Below are positions 1 to 52,122 of a DNA stretch of 64,000 nt, one piece after another. A program made the position numbers and the translations under genes. Under the pieces are notes generated by a model. That model was given only the letters and a program-made list of their open reading frames with translations, was not told where the DNA came from and made no database searches. How positions within the stretch are numbered: the stretch's first letter is position 1; each line of letters begins with the position of its first letter. The DNA is taken from positions 310,001 through 374,000 of the forward strand of contig NZMW01000010.1 in the NCBI GenBank assembly GCA_002694685.1, read 5' to 3'. The DNA is from Balneola sp. (GTDB lineage: Bacteria > Bacteroidota > Rhodothermia > Balneolales > Balneolaceae).

Positions 1-715
1 CCCAAAATGGAGGGAGTAAAACTGCGGGAAGGATTAACCAAAACCTCTGTTCCGTTAGTACTTTCCTATACACGTGAGCCGTAGATGAGTCGTCTTGATT
101 AGAAGCTTCTTTAGCTTTTTGGTTGGTCTCCTCAATTTCGGTTTTATGCAAAACGTAAAGTAAAAATGGAATGAAGGCCAAGACAATTACTGCAGCTATA
201 ATTCCCCAAGCCATTCTCCAGCTTACAACGGCTAATAAAGCAGCCATCAATAAAGGTAAGATGCCTTCCCCAAGTGGATAGCCAAGACTGGATACACTCA
301 ATGCTTTTCCACGCTGTAATTTGAAATATCTTGCCATTGCCGTTTCAGCAGTGTGACCGCTTAATCCTTGTCCTGACAACCGGAGCATTAAGATTGCGGC
401 AAAAAGAAAAGCAATGTGCCAGGATAGGGACATTGTTAATGCAGCCACAAACAGTCCCGAAGCTACATAAAGACTGTAGCGGCCAATTGGGAGGTGATCA
501 ATCCACTTACCCATGTAAGGCAGAATAGCCGCACTTGATAGCGTGGCTAAAGAATAAATGGAGCCAAAAGCAGCATTAGAAAGGTTGAAGTCCGCAAGGA
601 AAAAAGGGACAAAAAGTGAAATCAGGAATGTCTGTCCGAAACTGGAAAAGAAGGTGAAAGACAATCCAAAGCTCAGAACTTTTCTCTCTCGAAGAACGAA
701 GCTGATGTAGTTCAA
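1..715 (-). CDS. MFS transporter, N-terminal part (cut by window edge)
   Basis: The minus strand is open from about position 775 to the left edge and encodes the first ~238 residues of a major facilitator superfamily membrane transporter. Seen: hydrophobic segments typical of TM1 to TM6, a motif-A-like loop between TM2 and TM3 (MGKWIDHLPIGRYS), a loop with the sequence FKLQRGKALSVS, and the start of the charged central loop (KTEIEETNQKAKEA) before the C-terminal half, which is off the edge. There is no ATG in the open frame. I chose TTG at 715 because the next residues (NYISFVLRERKVLSFG) look like a normal MFS N-terminus. The substrate cannot be told. The start is uncertain; the family is not. 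Confidence 0.85.
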   Translation of the reverse strand, partial: MNYISFVLRERKVLSFGLSFTFFSSFGQTFLISLFVPFFLADFNLSNAAFGSIYSLATLSSAAILPYMGKWIDHLPIGRYSLYVASGLFVAALTMSLSWHIAFLFAAILMLRLSGQGLSGHTAETAMARYFKLQRGKALSVSSLGYPLGEGILPLLMAALLAVVSWRMAWGIIAAVIVLAFIPFLLYVLHKTEIEETNQKAKEASNQDDSSTAHVYRKVLTEQRFWLILPAVLLPPFW

Positions 716-3558: not shown

Positions 3559-5208
3559 TTATCGGCTTTCTTCTATCATTCGCAAGCGGGTAGCTTCAAA
3601 CTCGTCACCGGCATTCCAGGTTTGTAATTCATCGGCATTCAAAGCTCTGAAGCCGGTTAGAAAGAACAATCGAGTGTCAACTTCAGCCCCTGCTAAATCC
3701 CAGTATTGGTTAATTTCGTCATTCACGGTGTGGTAATTTGCATCCGCCACGCTGTCTCTCAAAGCTAAAAAGTTGTCACCCTTTCCAATGTACTCTGTAC
3801 CAGCGTTGGGGAATATTGCAGGGATTCCAATTTTGGCCATGTTGAAATGGTCGGATCGGTAGAAATAGCCGCGCTCGGGGTATGGGTCTGGCTTTACGGT
3901 GCGGCCTTGCTTTTGAGCTTCTTCTTCAAGCAAGTCGCTGAAAGAACTCCTGCCATAGCCAATAATAACTACATCCTTTGTCTCTCCATAAACATTCATT
4001 CCATCCAGATTGATGTTAGCTGTAACCTTTCCGGGAGCAACGGTAGGATTTTCAGCCCAATATTGTGATCCCAAAAGCCCAACTTCCTCAGCACTGACCA
4101 CCAAGCCAATCACACTTCTTTTTATGGTGGGTTGAATGGATTTATACGCTTCCATCATCTCAAGTAAAGCACTAACGCCAGCTGCATTATCAGAAGCGCC
4201 GTTATTGACGGAATCTCCTTCCACAGATTGGGTGATACCAAGGTGGTCTAAATGGGCTGTTAGAATGAGATATTCGTCTTTAAGCTCAGGATCATTGCCT
4301 TCTACTTTAGCAATTACATTTTGCCCATCTATGCTGCGATAGTTGGCGTCCATCTCCATATTTACTCGAACGCCATTTAGCTCAACAGGCGCAAAATCGC
4401 GGCTATCAGCAGCTTCCATTAAGTCAGGTAAATTAAGTCCCGCTTCCTCAAAAAGTAATCGAGAAGCCTGATAAGTTAGCCAGCCGTTAAATTCAGTAGC
4501 AGAAGTTGAGGCATTGCCTGCTCCTTCCAGGTAGAAACGCTCGCGGCTCCAGCCATTAGCAACCACGTTCCAGCCATAGCCTGCGGTCTCGTCTGTGTGA
4601 ATAATGATGGCACCTAACGCACCCATTTCTTTAGCCTTTTCATATTTGTAAGAATACCGACCATAGTACAGGCGGGTGGTTCCGGCAAAAACATCTTCAG
4701 AAAATTCAGGATCGTTATTTTTTATAACTAAGATTTTACCCTTTACATCCACACCTTTAAAATCATCCCAGTCTTCTTCCGGAGCTTGAATTCCATATCC
4801 AACATACACCAACTCAGCGTTACGTATGTCTACTTCTTCGGCTTGATTTGCAGGCCAGGCCATGAATTCATCATAATATTGCAAAGCAAATGGAGAACGA
4901 CCGTTTGTAGCCACTGACATTTCAGCGTTTGAAGTTGTTTGCCCAAGCAAAGGGAATTCTTGTATATAGCTTCCATTACCGGCGGCAGGTTCAGCACCCA
5001 TACTTTCAAATTCAGAAACAAGGTAATCAACCGTCATTTGCTCTCCTTCAGTACCAGTAGCGCGGCCCATGAATTCATCAGAAGAAAGGGTCTCGATGTG
5101 CCGAAGCAGCGAATCTTTATTAATACTTTGGGCAGCTTGATCTGCGGGGGAGGTATTGCAGGAAACCAAAAATAGGGATGCTGCAATTATCGAAAAGAAT
5201 GATTTCAT
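3559..5208 (-). CDS. Secreted M28 family zinc aminopeptidase with PA domain (lipoprotein)
   Basis: 549 residues. The N-terminus is a lipoprotein signal peptide with lipobox LVSC, Cys17 being the acylation site, so it is exported and lipid-anchored. A protease-associated (PA) insert lies at about 130-235. The M28 di-zinc site is complete: His319 (TAHLDHLG), Asp340 (GASDNAAG), Glu374-Glu375 (SAEEVGLLGSQY), Asp402 (NLDGM) and His493 (YHTVNDE). Role: removal of N-terminal residues from peptides at the cell surface. A second M28 lipoprotein lies at 39313-40581 but has PDZ instead of PA. No operon partner is evident. Confidence 0.93.
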   Translation of the reverse strand: MKSFFSIIAASLFLVSCNTSPADQAAQSINKDSLLRHIETLSSDEFMGRATGTEGEQMTVDYLVSEFESMGAEPAAGNGSYIQEFPLLGQTTSNAEMSVATNGRSPFALQYYDEFMAWPANQAEEVDIRNAELVYVGYGIQAPEEDWDDFKGVDVKGKILVIKNNDPEFSEDVFAGTTRLYYGRYSYKYEKAKEMGALGAIIIHTDETAGYGWNVVANGWSRERFYLEGAGNASTSATEFNGWLTYQASRLLFEEAGLNLPDLMEAADSRDFAPVELNGVRVNMEMDANYRSIDGQNVIAKVEGNDPELKDEYLILTAHLDHLGITQSVEGDSVNNGASDNAAGVSALLEMMEAYKSIQPTIKRSVIGLVVSAEEVGLLGSQYWAENPTVAPGKVTANINLDGMNVYGETKDVVIIGYGRSSFSDLLEEEAQKQGRTVKPDPYPERGYFYRSDHFNMAKIGIPAIFPNAGTEYIGKGDNFLALRDSVADANYHTVNDEINQYWDLAGAEVDTRLFFLTGFRALNADELQTWNAGDEFEATRLRMIEESR

Positions 5209-35264: not shown

Positions 35265-36224
35265 ATGGTTATCATCATTGGTGCAGGTCCCATAGGGCTT
35301 GCAACGGGAATTGCACTTCAGGAAAAAAATATTCCATTTAAAATTATTGAACGAGGTTGTCTGGTGAATTCGCTTTTTCACTACCCAACTAATATGACTT
35401 TCTTTTCGACTTCGGATAAACTCGAAATCGGGGATATTCCATTTATTTCACACGGACCAAAGCCAACCCGTGCCGAGGCGCTTGAGTATTACCGAAGAGT
35501 GGCGGAGTATTATGAGCTTCCAATCAACCTGTATGAAACGGTTACCTCGATGGAAGGTGAGGATGGCAACTTCACCGTAACCACCGATAAAGAGGTGTAC
35601 AAAGCAGAGAAGGTAATTGTAGCATCCGGTTTTTACGGTCAGGCTAACATGATGGGTGTGCCGGGAGAAGACCTTCCTAAAGTGAAGCACTATTATGATG
35701 AGCCACACCCTTACGCTTGGCAAAAAGTACTGGTGATTGGCGGTGGAAACTCCGGGGTGGATGTTGCCCTCGAATGCTGGAGAGGTGGTGCTGATGTAAC
35801 CATGTTGCTGAAGTACGATCAGATTAAACCCACGGTGAAATACTGGGTAAAACCAGATATCGAAAATCGAATTAAGAATGAAGAAATCCCGGCTTATTTT
35901 AATTCTGAAGTAAAAGAGATTCGGGAAAAAGAGGTAGTCATTGATACTCCGGATGGAGAAGTGATTCTGGAGAATGATTTTGTACTGGCCATGACTGGTT
36001 ATCACCCCAACTTCGAGCTGATGGAAAGTTTAGGCATTGAACTTACCGATGATGAGAAATGTATGCCGGTTCATGATGAGGATAGCCTCGAGACCGAACG
36101 GAAAGGCGTTTATGTAGCAGGAGTTGTTTGCGGGGGAATGGATACCAGTCGGTTGTTTATTGAGAACTCACGCGTTCACGCTGATCAGATAGCGAGTCAT
36201 ATTCAGGAGAGTTTGAAGGGGTAA
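35265..36224 (+). CDS. ypdA: YpdA family putative bacillithiol disulfide reductase
   Basis: 319 residues. Seen: the FAD-binding motif IIIGAGPIGLATG at the N-terminus (residues 3-15), the ERGCLVNSLFHYPTNMTFFST segment typical of YpdA, an NAD(P)H-binding VIGGGNSGVDVALE (about 152-165) and GVYVAGVV near the C-terminus. Known: YpdA reduces bacillithiol disulfide with NADPH. It implies this organism uses bacillithiol, alongside ergothioneine made from egtB/egtD. The gene stands alone, convergent with the TonB receptor. Confidence 0.92.
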   Translation: MVIIIGAGPIGLATGIALQEKNIPFKIIERGCLVNSLFHYPTNMTFFSTSDKLEIGDIPFISHGPKPTRAEALEYYRRVAEYYELPINLYETVTSMEGEDGNFTVTTDKEVYKAEKVIVASGFYGQANMMGVPGEDLPKVKHYYDEPHPYAWQKVLVIGGGNSGVDVALECWRGGADVTMLLKYDQIKPTVKYWVKPDIENRIKNEEIPAYFNSEVKEIREKEVVIDTPDGEVILENDFVLAMTGYHPNFELMESLGIELTDDEKCMPVHDEDSLETERKGVYVAGVVCGGMDTSRLFIENSRVHADQIASHIQESLKG

Positions 36225-36527: not shown

Positions 36528-38981
36528 TTAGAATTCCCACTTTACCTGGAATAAGAAGTTGGTTCCTGCTTGTGGGTAGTAATAATTGAAATTCACAGGG
36601 TCGCCATCCTGTAACCATCCGAAGGTATAACCATTGGTCTCATACTCATGGTTGAAAATGTTATTCACCTGCAGGGTAGCTGTTATCCCTTCAAACAAAG
36701 GCACTTGGTTAAAGGCATAGCTCAGCCTTACATCATTCACAAAATAGGGATCGATGGATCGGCTTTCGGTTTCTGTGTTATCCAGGTATTGGCGAGAGAC
36801 ATATTTAGAAACCAGTTCAGCATTAAGTCCACCTTTTTTATATCCGATTACACCGTTTGTAATAACTGATGGTGAGAAGGCGATGTCGGTATCTTCATAA
36901 ACCGTTTCCTGCTGACCCAGAAAGTTGAAACTGGCATCATATTGATCGGTGAATTGTGTGTACTCAACAATTTTATTCTGACTGAAGGTAGCATTAGCTG
37001 AAAGACTCAGATACTGACCCAGGCTTACTCCACCCTGAAGCTCTACACCTACACGATAGCTTTCCGGCACGTTCTGGCGTACAATTTCACCAACATCATT
37101 AATGGCTCCCGTTGGGACCAGCTGATCTTCGTAGAACATTCCATACAGATTTGCTCCAAGGAAATAGGAAGTGAAATCGCCACGATATCCGGCTTCTACG
37201 TTATACAGCTTTTCGGCGCTAGGTCTGCTGTCCGGTGTTGAATTTACGTACTCATCGCGGGTAGGTTCTTTCCCTCCTACACCAAATGAGGCATACGCTC
37301 TTTGTCCGTCATTCAGGTTATATACCAGTCCGAACTTTGGATTGAAGAAGCTGAGGTTGTCTTCCTGTCTTAATGAAACCAGATTATCCTGAACATTCGG
37401 TGGTGTTCCTGTTTGAACGATATCGTTTCCTAAGAATTCATAATTGATGGTACGCACCTGAAGATCCAGATAGGAGTTCAGCTTCTCGGTGAGCTGGTAC
37501 TGAAGCTTACCGTAGAGATTGAAGTCTTTCTTGATACCATCATTGTCATAATACCGGTCATTATTTTCACTGTCTCCGGCATAGCGGGCCCAGATAACTT
37601 CCCCAAAGTGGGCGCCATCATAATAGCTGTATCCACCACCAAAAGTTACATTCCAAGTGTCAGATGGTGCGTATCTTGTGGCGAAAATGGTCCCGTAATA
37701 ATCATTGTCTAACCAGCGCCGGCGGACTAAATCAGATTCGGTAGGCGTTCCGGGTTCAATGGTACTTATGCTATAATCGGCCAGGGATTCTTCGGCTTTA
37801 TATTCTTCATAATACCCGAAACCCTTGGTATAGAAAGCCGAAATATTAGCATTCCAGTTTTCTTGCAGCTGGTAGGAATAATGTAGCTGGTAGTAATTCT
37901 GCTGATAATCATCCACCTGATCTTCGTAAGGCTGGCCGCTTTTTTCAGTTCCTGCCTCGTTAAAGGTGCGGTTATTTTCCAGCACACTTTCTTCGATGCC
38001 ATACCAGGCCTGATAGGTGATTTCTTTTCCTGTGAAAACATCAGCGCGAAGCAAACTGCGTTCTCCATGATGAGAAGCTGATAAGAAATAAGAATCCAAA
38101 TCAGAACTCGCACGGTCGATAAAGCCATCGGAGTCAATTTTGGAAAGGCGGCCTTCAAATTGCCATCCATTTTCCATCAACCCCGAGCCCAAACGGACAT
38201 TGTATTTCCGGGTGTTGAAGGAACCAATTCCGGTATTAATTTCACCAAAAGGTTCGGGCGAAGAGGAGCTGGTTTGCAGGTTGATGGTTGCCCCAAAAGC
38301 ACCGGCGCCATTGGTAGATGTGCCTACTCCACGCTGGACCTGAATATTTTCGATGGACGAAGCCAGGTCAGGTAAATCAACCCAAAAAACTCCATGGGAT
38401 TCTGCGTCATTAACGGGGATACCGTTGATGGTTACGTTAATTCGAGCCGGATCAACTCCACGGATTCGAATACCGGTGTAACCAACGCCGGCTCCGGCAT
38501 CAGAAGTGGTGGTTACAGACGGAGTGTTCTGGAGTAAATAAGGAACATCCTGACCTAAATTTCTGCGTTCAATTTCTTCCCTGTCAACATTAGTAAATGT
38601 GATAGGAGAAGTCTCATCGACCCGAACGGCGCTTACAAAAACATCGTCGCCTATGTAGGTTTCCGGATAAAGGAATAACTCCAGGTCTTGTTTTTCATCG
38701 GATACATCAACTTCTAAATCTTTGTAGCCAAGAAAAGTTATCAGTAGCTCTTCTTCTCCATTCTCAGAAAGCTGTAGCTCAAAAGAGCCGTCATCTTGTG
38801 TTACGACCCCTCGGGTAGTTCCTTGCTGCCGTACGGCTGCACCGATTAATGGGTCTTTGGATTGAGCGTCAAGCACTGTACCTGTAATGGTTTGTGCTTG
38901 AATATCAGGTGAAAAGAGTAGTGGTATTGTAAATAGAAAAGCAGCGAATGCTGATTTCCTTAATAAGAATAGATTAAACAT
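36528..38981 (-). CDS. TonB-dependent receptor under TPP-riboswitch control (probable thiamine importer)
   Basis: 817 residues. Signal peptide ending SPDIQAQ, then a carboxypeptidase-like domain (about 31-110, ITGTVLDAQSKDPLIGAAV), a plug domain (about 115-245, with IRIRGVDPARINVTINGIPV and RGVGTSTNGAGAFGATINL) and a 22-strand barrel with aromatic C-terminus (FQVKWEF). No canonical TonB box sequence stands out at the mature N-terminus. A TPP riboswitch (39044-39122) precedes it, so the substrate is probably thiamine, its phosphates or a precursor. No pnuT or thiamine kinase is beside it. Start ATG 38981 has GGAGG three bases upstream. Confidence 0.92.
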   Translation of the reverse strand: MFNLFLLRKSAFAAFLFTIPLLFSPDIQAQTITGTVLDAQSKDPLIGAAVRQQGTTRGVVTQDDGSFELQLSENGEEELLITFLGYKDLEVDVSDEKQDLELFLYPETYIGDDVFVSAVRVDETSPITFTNVDREEIERRNLGQDVPYLLQNTPSVTTTSDAGAGVGYTGIRIRGVDPARINVTINGIPVNDAESHGVFWVDLPDLASSIENIQVQRGVGTSTNGAGAFGATINLQTSSSSPEPFGEINTGIGSFNTRKYNVRLGSGLMENGWQFEGRLSKIDSDGFIDRASSDLDSYFLSASHHGERSLLRADVFTGKEITYQAWYGIEESVLENNRTFNEAGTEKSGQPYEDQVDDYQQNYYQLHYSYQLQENWNANISAFYTKGFGYYEEYKAEESLADYSISTIEPGTPTESDLVRRRWLDNDYYGTIFATRYAPSDTWNVTFGGGYSYYDGAHFGEVIWARYAGDSENNDRYYDNDGIKKDFNLYGKLQYQLTEKLNSYLDLQVRTINYEFLGNDIVQTGTPPNVQDNLVSLRQEDNLSFFNPKFGLVYNLNDGQRAYASFGVGGKEPTRDEYVNSTPDSRPSAEKLYNVEAGYRGDFTSYFLGANLYGMFYEDQLVPTGAINDVGEIVRQNVPESYRVGVELQGGVSLGQYLSLSANATFSQNKIVEYTQFTDQYDASFNFLGQQETVYEDTDIAFSPSVITNGVIGYKKGGLNAELVSKYVSRQYLDNTETESRSIDPYFVNDVRLSYAFNQVPLFEGITATLQVNNIFNHEYETNGYTFGWLQDGDPVNFNYYYPQAGTNFLFQVKWEF

Positions 38982-38983
38982 AA

Positions 38984-39016
38984 TCCTCCATTTAAAACTT
39001 CATGATTAATGGAGGA
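38984..39016 (-). promoter_or_regulatory. SD-sequestering hairpin (riboswitch expression platform)
   Basis: On the minus strand TCCTCCAT (39016-39009) can pair with ATGGAGGA (38991-38984), perfect over 8 bp, loop 17. The second arm contains the ribosome binding site GGAGG of the TonB receptor gene. Base pairing would hide it. It lies between the TPP aptamer and the start codon. Confidence 0.75.
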
Positions 39017-39043
39017 GGTTAACTTGCGTAACTGTGCGGTAAA

Positions 39044-39122
39044 CAGGTTTCCCTACGCCGGTATTATCCGGTTCAGGTATTAGGGTGTAATCTCAGCCCG
39101 CTATGCAAGCACCCCCAACCTT
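39044..39122 (-). ncRNA. TPP riboswitch (THI box) aptamer
   Basis: On the minus strand: P1 arm AAGGTT with AACCTG, GGGGGTGCTTGC, the conserved GGGCTGAGATTACACCC, then ACCTGAACCGGATAATACC and GGCGTAGGGAAACC. These are the hallmark thi-box blocks CTGAGA, ACCTGA, GGATAAT and AGGGAA in the right order and spacing. It ends about 62 bases before the start of the TonB receptor gene, with the SD-sequestering hairpin between. Confidence 0.95.
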
Positions 39123-39312
39123 GGTTGTGAATTTCAAGATACGGAGGATGTTTTGATAATGTAAATCAAAAAATACCAATTCTGTTAATCATTAGGAGTT
39201 TTGACTTCTGGTGAACTAAAAGGTCGATTTTTGATTATAGATTTTATCATTCTAAAAACGCTTCTCAAATGTTATCTTAAATAAGCTCAAAAACTCAATT
39301 AATGATTAAATA

Positions 39313-40581
39313 ATGATCAAATATTTCCCAATCGTTTTACTGGTTGCCACACTGGTTTCCTGCTCTACTTCTGAAACCGAAAAAAGTACCACTGCAGAGA
39401 TATCGAAAGATGATGTTTTAACTCATATCACATTTCTGGCGAGTGAAGAAATGCGGGGCCGGGAAGCAGGAACGGCAGAGGAAGCTGCTTCTGCAAATTA
39501 TATTGCTGATTTATTCCGAAGCTATAGCTTGGACCCTGCTGGTGATGGGGGTACTTATTTTCAGGAGTTCACCATAAATACGGCTGTTTTGAATAATCCG
39601 CATGCCAGTGACTCTGATACATCCGGCGAAAAAAGGTTGTCTAAGAATGTGGCTGGACTTCTTCAGGGAACCGGTGATTCGGAAGAGATGATTATTATCG
39701 GGGCGCATTATGATCATTTGGGTATGGGTAGCTTTGGCTCTTTGAGTAGCAGTGAAGACCCGCGAATTCATAACGGTGCCGATGATAATGCATCCGGGAC
39801 GGCGGGAGTGCTCGAGTTAGCAGAGTATTTTTCAGCAAACCGCCCTGAGACGGACATCTTATTTCTTGCCTTCTCGGGGGAAGAAATGGGCTTGCTTGGA
39901 TCTCAGTATTATGTTGACAATCCTACTGTTGAATTAGGGAATTCGCTTGCCATGATAAACATGGATATGGTCGGGAGAATGAATGATAACCGACTCATGA
40001 TATTTGGAGTTGCCACTACTGATAATTGGGAGTCTATACTGACTGAAGCAAATACCGATTCACTGGATTTAGATTTGATTCCTGATGGAACCGGCGCAAG
40101 CGATCATACCAGCTTTTACTACAAAGATATTCCGGTACTTCACTATTTCACAGATACCCACGCTGATTACCACCGCCCTTCTGACGATACGGAATGGATT
40201 AATGAAGAAGGAGAAGAATTGATGCTTAAGCATCTTGTTCGTGTGATTGAAAAACTGGATGGGATGAATAAGGAAGAGCTAGCCTTCACCGAGGCTCCGG
40301 GCGAACAGCAGCGAAATATGACCATGAGTGGCCCGACTTTAGGTGTACTTCCTGACTATGGATATGACGGAGAAGGTTTTCGGATAACAGGTGTGAGTGA
40401 AGGGCGTGCTGCAGACAATGCTGGCATGGAAGGCGGGGATGTGATTATCAACATTGCCGGAATGGATATCGCTGATATCTATGGTTATATGGAAGCATTA
40501 AATGAGCTGGAAGAGGGACAAACAACAAGCGTCACTGTTCTCCGTGATGGCGAAGAAATGACGTTTGAGTTGCAGCTTTAG
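39313..40581 (+). CDS. Secreted M28 zinc peptidase with C-terminal PDZ domain (lipoprotein)
   Basis: 422 residues. Lipoprotein signal with LVSC (Cys17). M28 zinc site: His in GAHYDHLG, Asp in GADDNASG, Glu pair in SGEEMGLLGSQYY, Asp in NMDMVG and His in TDTHADYHRPSDD. A PDZ-like domain at about 335-420 (LGVLPDYGYDGEGFRITGVSEGRAADNAGMEGGDVII) follows. Unlike the first M28 lipoprotein it has no PA insert. Likely acts on peptides outside the inner membrane. Confidence 0.93.
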   Translation: MIKYFPIVLLVATLVSCSTSETEKSTTAEISKDDVLTHITFLASEEMRGREAGTAEEAASANYIADLFRSYSLDPAGDGGTYFQEFTINTAVLNNPHASDSDTSGEKRLSKNVAGLLQGTGDSEEMIIIGAHYDHLGMGSFGSLSSSEDPRIHNGADDNASGTAGVLELAEYFSANRPETDILFLAFSGEEMGLLGSQYYVDNPTVELGNSLAMINMDMVGRMNDNRLMIFGVATTDNWESILTEANTDSLDLDLIPDGTGASDHTSFYYKDIPVLHYFTDTHADYHRPSDDTEWINEEGEELMLKHLVRVIEKLDGMNKEELAFTEAPGEQQRNMTMSGPTLGVLPDYGYDGEGFRITGVSEGRAADNAGMEGGDVIINIAGMDIADIYGYMEALNELEEGQTTSVTVLRDGEEMTFELQL

Positions 40582-49701: not shown

Positions 49702-52122
49702 ATGAACTATGTAAAGTCTGGAATCTCGTTTCTCATCCTCCTCGCTCTTATCATCTCCTTAAACACAAAATTTGGTTCAGTTCCACCCTTAGGTAAGTTT
49801 TTTGATCCGGATGCCGGATTTTGGGCAAACGCTGAGACTTCGGTTCCTAACTCAGAGGAGTTAGATATTCCCGGCTTGAAAGAGGACGTATCGGTGTATT
49901 ATGATGACCGTCGCGTACCACATATTTTTGCTAAGAATGATCATGATTTATACTTAGCTCAGGGATATATAGAGGCTCAAGACCGGCTGTTTCAAATGGA
50001 GATGCAAACCTATGACGCAGCAGGAAGATTAGCTGAAATTGTGGGTCCATCACTACTAAACCGGGACAAGAATACGCGTCGCTGGGGAATGCCTTATGGG
50101 GCAGAAAAGGCTTTGGAGGAAATTCAAAAAGAACCAGCCATGCTCGAAGCGATTACGGCATATGCAGATGGGGTGAATGCCTTTATTGATGAACTTTCCC
50201 CTGCCGACTATCCGCTAGAATATAAAATTCTGAACACTGCTCCTGAAAAGTGGGTGCCGCTTAAAACGGCCTTACTGTTTAAAAACATGACCCGAACATT
50301 GGCAGGAAGAAGCAATGACGATCGCACCAGCAATACGCTTGCTTACTTTGGTGAAGATTTTGTAGAGCAATTTTTTACCCGCGATCCAGAACTTAATGAC
50401 CCGATTATTCCTCCCTCAAGAGAATGGGATTTTGAAACCGATATTCCAGAAGCTCCTGATAGCTTATACGTTCCTGCTTCAGCTAAAGAGGTGCAAGCTT
50501 TTACTGTTGAAGAAGGAATCGGGAGTAACAACTGGGCGGTAAGCGGAGATAAGACGGCCTCAGGTTATCCTATTTTGGCTAATGATCCACACCTTTCTTT
50601 GACGCTTCCCTCAATTTGGTATGAAGTTCAGCTACATGCCCCCGGAGTAAATACGTATGGGGTAAGTTTACAAGGCTCACCTGGAGTGGTTATAGGCTTT
50701 AACGAAGATGTAGCATGGGGCGTGACAAACGTCGGCTCCGATGTATTGGATTGGTATGAAATCAAATTCAAAGATGATAACAAGCAAGAATACTGGCACG
50801 ATGGGAAGTGGAAACCCACATCAACCCGAATAGAAGAGATAAAAGTACGCGGGCAGGAAACGGTGATGGATACGGTTATATACACCCATCATGGACCGGT
50901 AACTGAAGTTCAATCTAATGTAAATGATGAACGGGCTCCGGTGTACCATGCGATGCGTTGGATTGCTCATGAACCTTCTAATGAATTCAAAACTTTTTAT
51001 GAATTGAACCGGGCAGAAGATTATGAGGACTACGTGACTGCTCTGAAAAATTATAAGGCGCCCGCTCAGAATTTTGTTTTTGCGAGTAATGAAGGTGATA
51101 TAGCTATCTGGGTAAATGGGTTGTTCCCGAATAAGTGGGAGCATCAGGGGCGAACGGTGAGTGATGGGACAGACCCTGCTTACGACTGGCAAGGATGGAT
51201 TCCCCGAGATCACGTTCCTCATATTAAAAATCCGGAAAGAGGTTTTGTGAGTTCGGCTAATCAGGAATCAGCGGCACCGGACTACCCCTATTACCTGGAT
51301 GATGATTTTGCTCCTTTTGAACGAGGTCGAAGAATCAATGATCTGCTGGAGTCCATGGAAAACATCACACCACAAGATATGCAGGAAATGCAGATGGATG
51401 ATTACAGCTATTATGCTGCTACTCTGTTACCAAGCTTGTTAATGTGGACGGATCAATCCAGCCTGTCTCCCGAAGAACAAGTGCTTTATGACTTATTGGA
51501 AGAGTGGAATTATCATATGGATGCAGAGGAATTAACTCCATCAATATTCCGGCAGTGGGCAAGTAATTTCTATGGTGCTGTGCTGTACGATGAATATGAA
51601 ACCACAGAGGCCAGCCTCCGCTACCCCTCTCGTGATATCTTTGTTGAGAGAGTGAAAACCGATCCGGATTTTTCATTTATAGATGATTTGACTACTGAAG
51701 GAGTTGAAACCAGAGAAGATCTTGCTTTAGCTACCCTAAAAGAAACTTATTCTGAACTTACTACCGCATGGGGAGCATTAGGAGATCAATGGAAGTGGGG
51801 AGTTGCTATCAACAATGATATTGATCACCTGGCCAACATTCCCGGATTAGGAGCAGAGAATTTATTTAGCAGTGGTTCTTCTGATGCCGTAAATGCTACT
51901 CGTGGTGGCAATGGACCTTCCTGGAGAATGGTGGTTGAGTTAGGTCCTGAAGTAAAAGGCTGGGGAGTATATCCAGGCGGGGCTTCCGGAAACCCGGGTT
52001 CGCCAAATTATGACTCTATGATTGAAACGTGGCGAACAGGAGGTCTTTTCGAATTAGATTTTTTCAAAGAAGAACCTTCGGACTTTAACTACAAGTTGAG
52101 CCTCAAATCTGCTGACTCATAA
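49702..52122 (+). CDS. Penicillin acylase family protein (Ntn hydrolase)
   Basis: 806 residues. Hydrophobic N-terminus (ISFLILLALIISL) that may be a signal or anchor. Alpha chain about 50-270, then the autocleavage site at Ser275 in EGIGSNNWAVSG, the new N-terminal nucleophile of the beta chain. Then NDPHLSLTLPSIWYEVQLH and FNEDVAWGVTNVGSDVLD follow, as in penicillin/acyl-homoserine-lactone acylases. It hydrolyses amide bonds of acyl compounds; substrate unknown. A small membrane-protein gene overlaps its stop by one base. Confidence 0.93.
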   Translation: MNYVKSGISFLILLALIISLNTKFGSVPPLGKFFDPDAGFWANAETSVPNSEELDIPGLKEDVSVYYDDRRVPHIFAKNDHDLYLAQGYIEAQDRLFQMEMQTYDAAGRLAEIVGPSLLNRDKNTRRWGMPYGAEKALEEIQKEPAMLEAITAYADGVNAFIDELSPADYPLEYKILNTAPEKWVPLKTALLFKNMTRTLAGRSNDDRTSNTLAYFGEDFVEQFFTRDPELNDPIIPPSREWDFETDIPEAPDSLYVPASAKEVQAFTVEEGIGSNNWAVSGDKTASGYPILANDPHLSLTLPSIWYEVQLHAPGVNTYGVSLQGSPGVVIGFNEDVAWGVTNVGSDVLDWYEIKFKDDNKQEYWHDGKWKPTSTRIEEIKVRGQETVMDTVIYTHHGPVTEVQSNVNDERAPVYHAMRWIAHEPSNEFKTFYELNRAEDYEDYVTALKNYKAPAQNFVFASNEGDIAIWVNGLFPNKWEHQGRTVSDGTDPAYDWQGWIPRDHVPHIKNPERGFVSSANQESAAPDYPYYLDDDFAPFERGRRINDLLESMENITPQDMQEMQMDDYSYYAATLLPSLLMWTDQSSLSPEEQVLYDLLEEWNYHMDAEELTPSIFRQWASNFYGAVLYDEYETTEASLRYPSRDIFVERVKTDPDFSFIDDLTTEGVETREDLALATLKETYSELTTAWGALGDQWKWGVAINNDIDHLANIPGLGAENLFSSGSSDAVNATRGGNGPSWRMVVELGPEVKGWGVYPGGASGNPGSPNYDSMIETWRTGGLFELDFFKEEPSDFNYKLSLKSADS

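Follow-up and report, generated by a model that had tools for sequence, protein, structure and literature searches.

A TPP riboswitch predicted to turn off translation of a probable thiamine receptor in Balneola, and a conserved Shine-Dalgarno sequence in a lineage that hardly uses them

The thiM TPP riboswitch of Escherichia coli acts on translation, by sequestering the Shine-Dalgarno (SD) sequence. In Bacteroides thetaiotaomicron, a TPP-controlled receptor, OMthi, was reported to matter for growth at low thiamine: a mutant lacking both OMthi and biosynthesis needed about ten times more thiamine than the biosynthesis mutant alone, and the OMthi transcripts, as described there, showed hardly any response to thiamine (PMC5613172). 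PMC7366714 cites a 2019 preprint whose title states that Bacteroides TPP riboswitches regulate transcription or translation. As regards the use of SD sequences, autoregulation of rpsU (bS21) through an extended SD was described in Flavobacteriales and proposed for Chlorobia; the same source describes SD control in Flavobacteriales as confined to rpsU, reports that the anti-SD is buried by bS21, bS18, and bS6 in Bacteroidia, and notes that Chlorobia share the strong rpsU SD and lack Y54 of bS21 (PMC9976891). The riboswitch class, its translational mode, and the role of the receptor are already known, and what is new here is the anti-sequestor, the conservation of an SD where SDs are otherwise scarce, and a receptor that changes while the riboswitch ahead of it is conserved. 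Among the publications found on Bacteroidetes or Bacteroides riboswitches with an SD, none treated such a case in its title or in the opening of its abstract, the word riboswitch is absent from the main text of PMC9976891 and PMC8710568, and none of the titles found for receptor exchange dealt with it.

The window, that is, the whole stretch of 64,000 nucleotides of Balneola sp. that was analysed, had been predicted to carry a TPP aptamer, an SD-sequestering hairpin, and a TonB receptor on the minus strand, and all three were found:

36528..38981, minus strand: TonB-dependent receptor of type A, 817 aa, with CarbopepD_reg_2, Plug, and beta-barrel domains
39033..39126, minus strand: TPP riboswitch aptamer (RF00059), covariance-model scan, 70 bits, model positions 1-105 of 105
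39105..39116, minus strand: 5' strand of P2/P3, GGGGGUGCUUGC, partner of the linker in the ligand-free fold (free MFE)
39015..39027, minus strand: anti-sequestor strand of the linker, GCAAGUUAACCUC (free MFE)
39008..39016, minus strand: anti-SD arm of the sequestering hairpin, UCCUCCAUU (MFE with the aptamer forced)
38984..38992, minus strand: SD arm of the sequestering hairpin, AAUGGAGGA (sequence and aptamer-forced fold)
38985-38989, minus strand: SD core GGAGG, 3 nt 5' of the ATG (38981)
39136..39165, minus strand: promoter-like TTTACA-18-TATCTT directly 5' of the aptamer, a weak match to the consensus

The riboswitch was borne out by a full-length match to RF00059 (E = 1e-11 with cmscan, against a gathering score of 54.3), which starts at 39126, 4 bases 5' of the position 39122 expected from the original prediction. 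CUGAGA, ACCUGA, and GCGUAGGGAA, which we take to be the conserved blocks of TPP riboswitches, are all present in the aptamer, as seen from the alignment and the sequence. At the search threshold, no other RF00059 match was found in the 3.95-Mb genome (99.7% complete), so that the receptor site is the sole one. At the sequence level, the leader is a TPP riboswitch, and it presumably binds TPP. The aptamer lies 51 nt from the ATG (39032-38982), and the predicted perfect hairpin between TCCTCCAT (39016-39009) and ATGGAGGA (38991-38984), which contains GGAGG, is real. On the opposite strand, convergent with the receptor, 35265-36224 encodes a YpdA-type putative bacillithiol disulfide reductase (NCBIfam TIGR04018, 470.6 bits for a cut-off of 339.9).

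When the aptamer was formed in the folding model, a 9-bp stem joined 39016-39008 to 38992-38984, and forcing the aptamer pairs brought the probability of SD-linker pairing to 1.00; as expected of an SD-sequestering platform, the SD is covered in this state by a helix, whose arms covary between genera (see below). In the free fold, the partner of GGGGGUGCUUGC (39116-39105) was GCAAGU..ACCUC in the linker (39027-39015), and 7 bp remained of the SD stem. Direct competition between the aptamer and the SD hairpin, which the original prediction had set as its test, was rejected, since both coexist in the aptamer-forced fold, the off state. The competitor, both of the aptamer and of part of the hairpin, is a third pairing that the prediction did not name, between the aptamer 5' strand and the linker. 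The modelled cost of opening the SD was 5.7 kcal/mol in the free leader and 10.1 kcal/mol with the aptamer, a difference of 4.3 kcal/mol. In 150 shufflings of the linker, a test applied to the linker of the window, the difference averaged 1.36 (sd 1.45) and reached the real value 5 times. In the unconstrained equilibrium ensemble, the ligand-free SD nevertheless had a probability of 0.73 of pairing with the linker and of only 0.03 of being unpaired; the modelled on-state is thus to be read as "easier to open" and not as "open".

The folding of transcript prefixes was also analyzed. Forcing the aptamer cost 1.0 kcal/mol at 87-93 nt, 9.7 kcal/mol once the linker had emerged (117-129 nt), and 4.4-5.3 kcal/mol from 147 nt, when the SD hairpin had emerged, and these costs fit a choice made during transcription. 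According to this model of the growing transcript, the aptamer would form first, the linker could then displace it, and TPP would prevent the displacement. When TPP is scarce, the nascent aptamer would yield as the linker emerges, and the GGGGGUGCUUGC-GCAAGUUAACCUC pairing would capture part of the anti-SD strand, leaving a weaker SD hairpin that the ribosome could open, so that the receptor would be made. When TPP is plentiful, the aptamer would be held, the linker would stay free, and the full 9-bp hairpin would hide the SD, so that no receptor would be made. The resemblance to E. coli thiM lies in the TPP aptamer upstream, the SD hidden with ligand, and the alternative pairing that frees it; the alternative pairing differs in being made by the P2/P3 5' strand and a linker motif, and here the gene encodes an outer-membrane receptor in an SD-poor host lineage.

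The conservation of this leader was analyzed in 92 genomes of the family, 85 of which carry a TPP site. A TonB receptor follows 85 of the 139 TPP sites in total. [GA]GAGG was found 5' of the ATG in 80 of the 85 receptor leaders, at a spacing of 3-6 nt in 76 of these 80; no SD was parsed in L009, L056, L120, L138, and L005, the last being excluded from the count as its match falls inside the coding region. The aptamer parse failed in three of the 80 (L047, L099, and L105), and 77 leaders were modelled. In all 77, opening the SD cost more with the aptamer than in the free fold (by more than 1 kcal/mol in 75, median 3.8). Replacing the right arm of the hairpin by that of another genus lowered the stability in 2667 of 3534 chimaeras, and of 64 distinct SD hairpins, 57 were more stable than the mean of their own chimaeras. 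The inner arms covary between genera (for example, AUUAA/UUAAAU, UCAAU/AUUGA, and CUUAU/AUAAG) and the hairpin is kept. A free-register count of stem pairs pointed in the same direction (own mean 8.19 pairs vs 7.65 across genera; own better in 2105 comparisons, tied in 1210, worse in 1237), but it picked U-rich false registers and is weaker than the chimaera test.

The anti-sequestor was less uniform. A P3 with GCUUGC was accompanied by GCAAG in the linker in 28 of 28 leaders, as against 2 of 49 leaders with another P3. On the receptor tree (76 rows), the P3 motif changed five times and the linker motif seven times, and the four independent pairs on supported branches were concordant in 3.9 on average; the median p of 0.125 is to be read in the light of the small number of pairs, with which this sign test cannot reach 0.05. 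In the equilibrium model, the linker beside the anti-SD pairs instead with the aptamer 3' strand in genera g2, g5, g10, and g19 (at only 0.04 in one of the three g5 leaders), and neither alternative exceeded 0.1 in g3, g4, g6, g7, g16, and g21, although g3, g4, g6, g16, and g21 carry the GCUUGC/GCAAG motifs. The anti-sequestor is therefore well modelled in part of the family only. The translational off-switch of the original prediction is supported by the thermodynamic modelling and by the covariation of the arms, and we consider it very probable, on this modelling, that the riboswitch turns off translation of a thiamine outer-membrane receptor.

Other arrangements were seen among the 139 TPP sites. 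At 14 of them, in relatives, the next gene encodes a SAM methyltransferase by sequence clustering; one of these sites is L092 (G022:C6) in a genus-mate, where the methyltransferase (Pfam PF08241) is followed by AIRS-domain, ThiE-family, and Trm112-like proteins; three other methyltransferase loci resemble L092 as far as they extend. Just 3' of 28 sites, many of them low-scoring, there was no receptor, methyltransferase, or thiL-, thiM-, or thiD-like ORF, and these sites (including L079, L091, L095, L129, L136, and L137) may be orphans, remnants, or cases of missed genes. G062:C142 has two divergent TPP riboswitches, 3981-4079 (minus strand) and 4204-4296 (plus strand), separated by about 125 bases; a type A receptor with a short ORF (403 aa) follows one of them, and a type B receptor the other.

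Two types of receptor stand behind the riboswitch, A (65 rows) and B (20 rows), separated with an SH-aLRT of 100 in a quick tree of 84 rows, from which L116 (146 aa) was omitted and whose A side has two long branches, L009 and L138. Compared with the first 483 residues of the receptor in the window, type B rows show 28-36% identity. Type B was found in 10 genera, seven of which hold both types, and all six receptors of g19 are of type B. No type A receptor was seen in 17 of the 20 type B genomes (at most 11 candidates scored per genome, E 1e-60), a count in which misses are possible as the search missed the type A receptor of G062. On the leader tree (79 rows), 11 changes of receptor type were counted, a rough number since that tree rests on short sequences.

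Outside g19, 11 type B leaders were parsed, and 10 of them were closer to a type A leader than to the type B leader of another genus, the remaining one being a tie after rounding; the best-matching type A leader came from the same genus in six of the 11. The clearest pair is G019 (type B) and G020 (type A), whose leaders are 97% identical. Counting from the aptamer start as 0, the two genomes share 89% of their DNA between -113 and 260, a stretch that reaches into the signal-peptide region; similarity returns, at 87%, from 2471, directly past the stop codon, and only one 45-nt match lies in between. Similar but weaker patterns were observed for G040/G039 (83% over -16..304 and 68% from 2455) and for G031/G032 (88% over -3..119, ending 5' of the ATG, and 71% from 2536). 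In g2, g3, g5, and g10, the same neighbouring gene families stand beside both types on one or both sides. In G022, of the same genus as the window, the upstream neighbour is different and there is an extra gene downstream. These sequence comparisons suggest repeated exchange of the receptor behind the conserved leader, for the most part without a change of locus.

The pattern may stem from exchange by recombination or, possibly, from loss out of an old neighbouring pair together with conversion of the leader. If the two types were old paralogues that stood side by side, with one of them retained in each lineage and gene conversion evening out the leaders, there would have been no exchange; G062, G075, and G076, which hold both types (close together in G062 and G075), would fit such a history, as would the branching of type B, which partly follows genera (g5 with g10). 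Against it stand the 17 type B genomes without a visible type A, the 10 leaders nearer to type A, and the similarity of G019 and G020, which stops in the signal-peptide region and returns past the stop codon. We regard such a history as a serious possibility, though not the one that we favour, which is exchange.

The SD itself is unusual in this lineage. An SD core precedes all 21 TPP-controlled receptors of the window and 20 family loci, but only 6 of 175 other genes there (0.034, vs 0.038 after shuffling). For pairing energies, the best of the first ATGs was taken for all genes alike, with a 16S tail whose sequence we assume to be correct. The 174 other genes gave a median of -2.3 kcal/mol, vs -3.3 in a mock window, whereas the 21 receptors gave -9.3 kcal/mol (range -9.5 to -6.3); values as strong as the receptor median occur in eight of the other genes, and values as strong as that of the weakest receptor in 25. 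With the other genes at chance level and no better than the mock window, general use of SDs is unlikely. An SD core was found before none of 20 genes behind cobalamin riboswitches (19 genomes, that of the window included) and before one of 26 other TPP-controlled genes (L002), and the idea that SDs accompany riboswitches in general was therefore rejected.

The chance-level SD cores, the poor 16S-tail pairing of the other genes, and the CCUCC that joins alternative pairings in some genera would also be expected if the ribosome ignored SDs altogether and the GGAGG hairpin were a structural lid over the start region, with GGAGG preserved through the pairing of CCUCC with the G-rich aptamer strand. 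Such a lid would leave unexplained, however, that 76 of 80 leaders have GGAGG or AGAGG 3-6 nt from the ATG, that this core hardly varies where the inner stem does, and that it is kept even in genera, for example g3, g4, and g21, in which the model gives the anti-SD core almost no pairing with the aptamer. We also count against it that, in the leaders of type A receptors from other named records, an SD core was seen by eye in two of 26, L233 (Balneolales bacterium) and L231 (Bacteroidetes bacterium HLUCCA01). Among these records, L241, L242, L275, and L276 reached -8 kcal/mol or stronger at some in-frame start, that of L275 lying inside the aptamer, and L232 carries tandem TPP aptamers (2641-2737 and 2876-2972) before its type A receptor. 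A lid without SD function is thus rather unlikely in our view, and GGAGG is most likely a working SD, though the lineage otherwise hardly uses SDs.

The receptor message resembles rpsU in being a rare mRNA with an SD where the lineage hardly uses SDs; it differs in its weaker pairing (-9.3 kcal/mol) and in that the riboswitch hides its SD. In the genome of the window, rpsU (L293, G000:C13 near 51418-51579) carries an extended SD-like stretch, AGAAAGGATGTGATAC, 5' of its ATG, which pairs at -16.6 kcal/mol, stronger than the -13 kcal/mol used for extended SDs in PMC9976891; the receptor falls short of this value, which is only roughly comparable as another program and an assumed 16S tail were used here. 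With such a stretch before rpsU, autoregulation of bS21 may reach as far as Balneolia. The bS21 of this genome has an R at position 54 (counted from the chosen ATG, unaligned), which likens the organism to the Chlorobia case. Taken further, the receptor mRNA could be one of very few true-SD messages in cells whose ribosomes normally ignore or hide the anti-SD, translated preferentially by ribosomes with a free 16S tail (for example, without bS21), with the leader as a fixed docking site for receptor exchange; we put this forward as quite unlikely.

Translation and Rho-dependent termination are often coupled, and the riboswitch might act mainly on transcription, by Rho-dependent or other termination, with the hairpin as a secondary element. 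A scan of 38850-39320 found no intrinsic terminator-like site, and a terminator in the leader was rejected on this ground. With the scarcely thiamine-responsive OMthi transcripts of B. thetaiotaomicron (PMC5613172) also pointing elsewhere, we hold a mainly transcriptional switch to be improbable and retain the translational one.

In parallel, the genome was searched for the means to make and use thiamine; for biosynthesis, the search covered ThiC, ThiE, and ThiG. ThiC was absent from this genome and from all 92 genomes of the family, and the same model matched 13 of 14 control genomes. Nothing above the cut-off was found for ThiE and ThiG in the genome of the window, where sub-threshold matches occurred at one locus only. 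One PnuC-family transporter and one TPK are encoded by adjoining, convergent genes on contig C11, and we infer from its TPK neighbour that the transporter is PnuT rather than PnuC. These results, taken together, make thiamine the most likely cargo of the receptor. Without ThiE, precursors would be useless by the usual route, so that thiamine or its phosphates are probably what the receptor imports. The expectation of the original prediction that the substrate is probably thiamine or a derivative fits this genome context. TPP control by itself does not name the substrate, but a precursor (HMP, thiazole) or another thiamine compound as cargo is very improbable, as the usual route for joining precursors would be closed in this genome, and TPK and a PnuC-family transporter are present.

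The type A receptor thus probably serves thiamine, which it would hand, or its phosphates, to the PnuC-family transporter and TPK. Like OMthi (BT2390), it is a TonB-dependent receptor, with plug and barrel, under a TPP riboswitch and with PnuT as its presumed partner. Bacteroides, as described for the OMthi system, differs in also making thiamine and in having TPP riboswitches on three operons, whereas the genome of the window has a single TPP riboswitch, lacks ThiC, and shows no RF00059 match at either the PnuC-family gene or TPK. Among named records, the close relatives are MAGs labelled Gracilimonas, Balneola, and Balneolaceae. A TPP aptamer was found upstream of type A receptors of other named records in 26 of the 33 loci scanned (out of the 62 loci L231-L292), and a PnuC-family gene lay within 3 kb in 16 of 80 and a TPK in 0 of 80. 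A sequence search of solved structures gave three partial matches to the N-terminal part (best 53.1 bits), which say nothing on the substrate.

That receptors differ where the riboswitch is conserved suggests that regulation can evolve independently of the transporter, and matched pairs such as G019/G020, with a near-identical leader, one locus, and different receptors, could be used to test what drives receptor turnover. If the leader is indeed a docking site, receptor exchange would serve the form of the substrate or answer phage pressure; and if the receptor message is indeed read by specialised ribosomes, the TPP riboswitch would gate it, linking vitamin uptake with the state of the ribosome. 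A riboswitch that hides a conserved SD family-wide would provide a second SD message besides rpsU, and one that can be controlled by a ligand, which would make it possible to test directly if, and under what conditions, such ribosomes read SDs.
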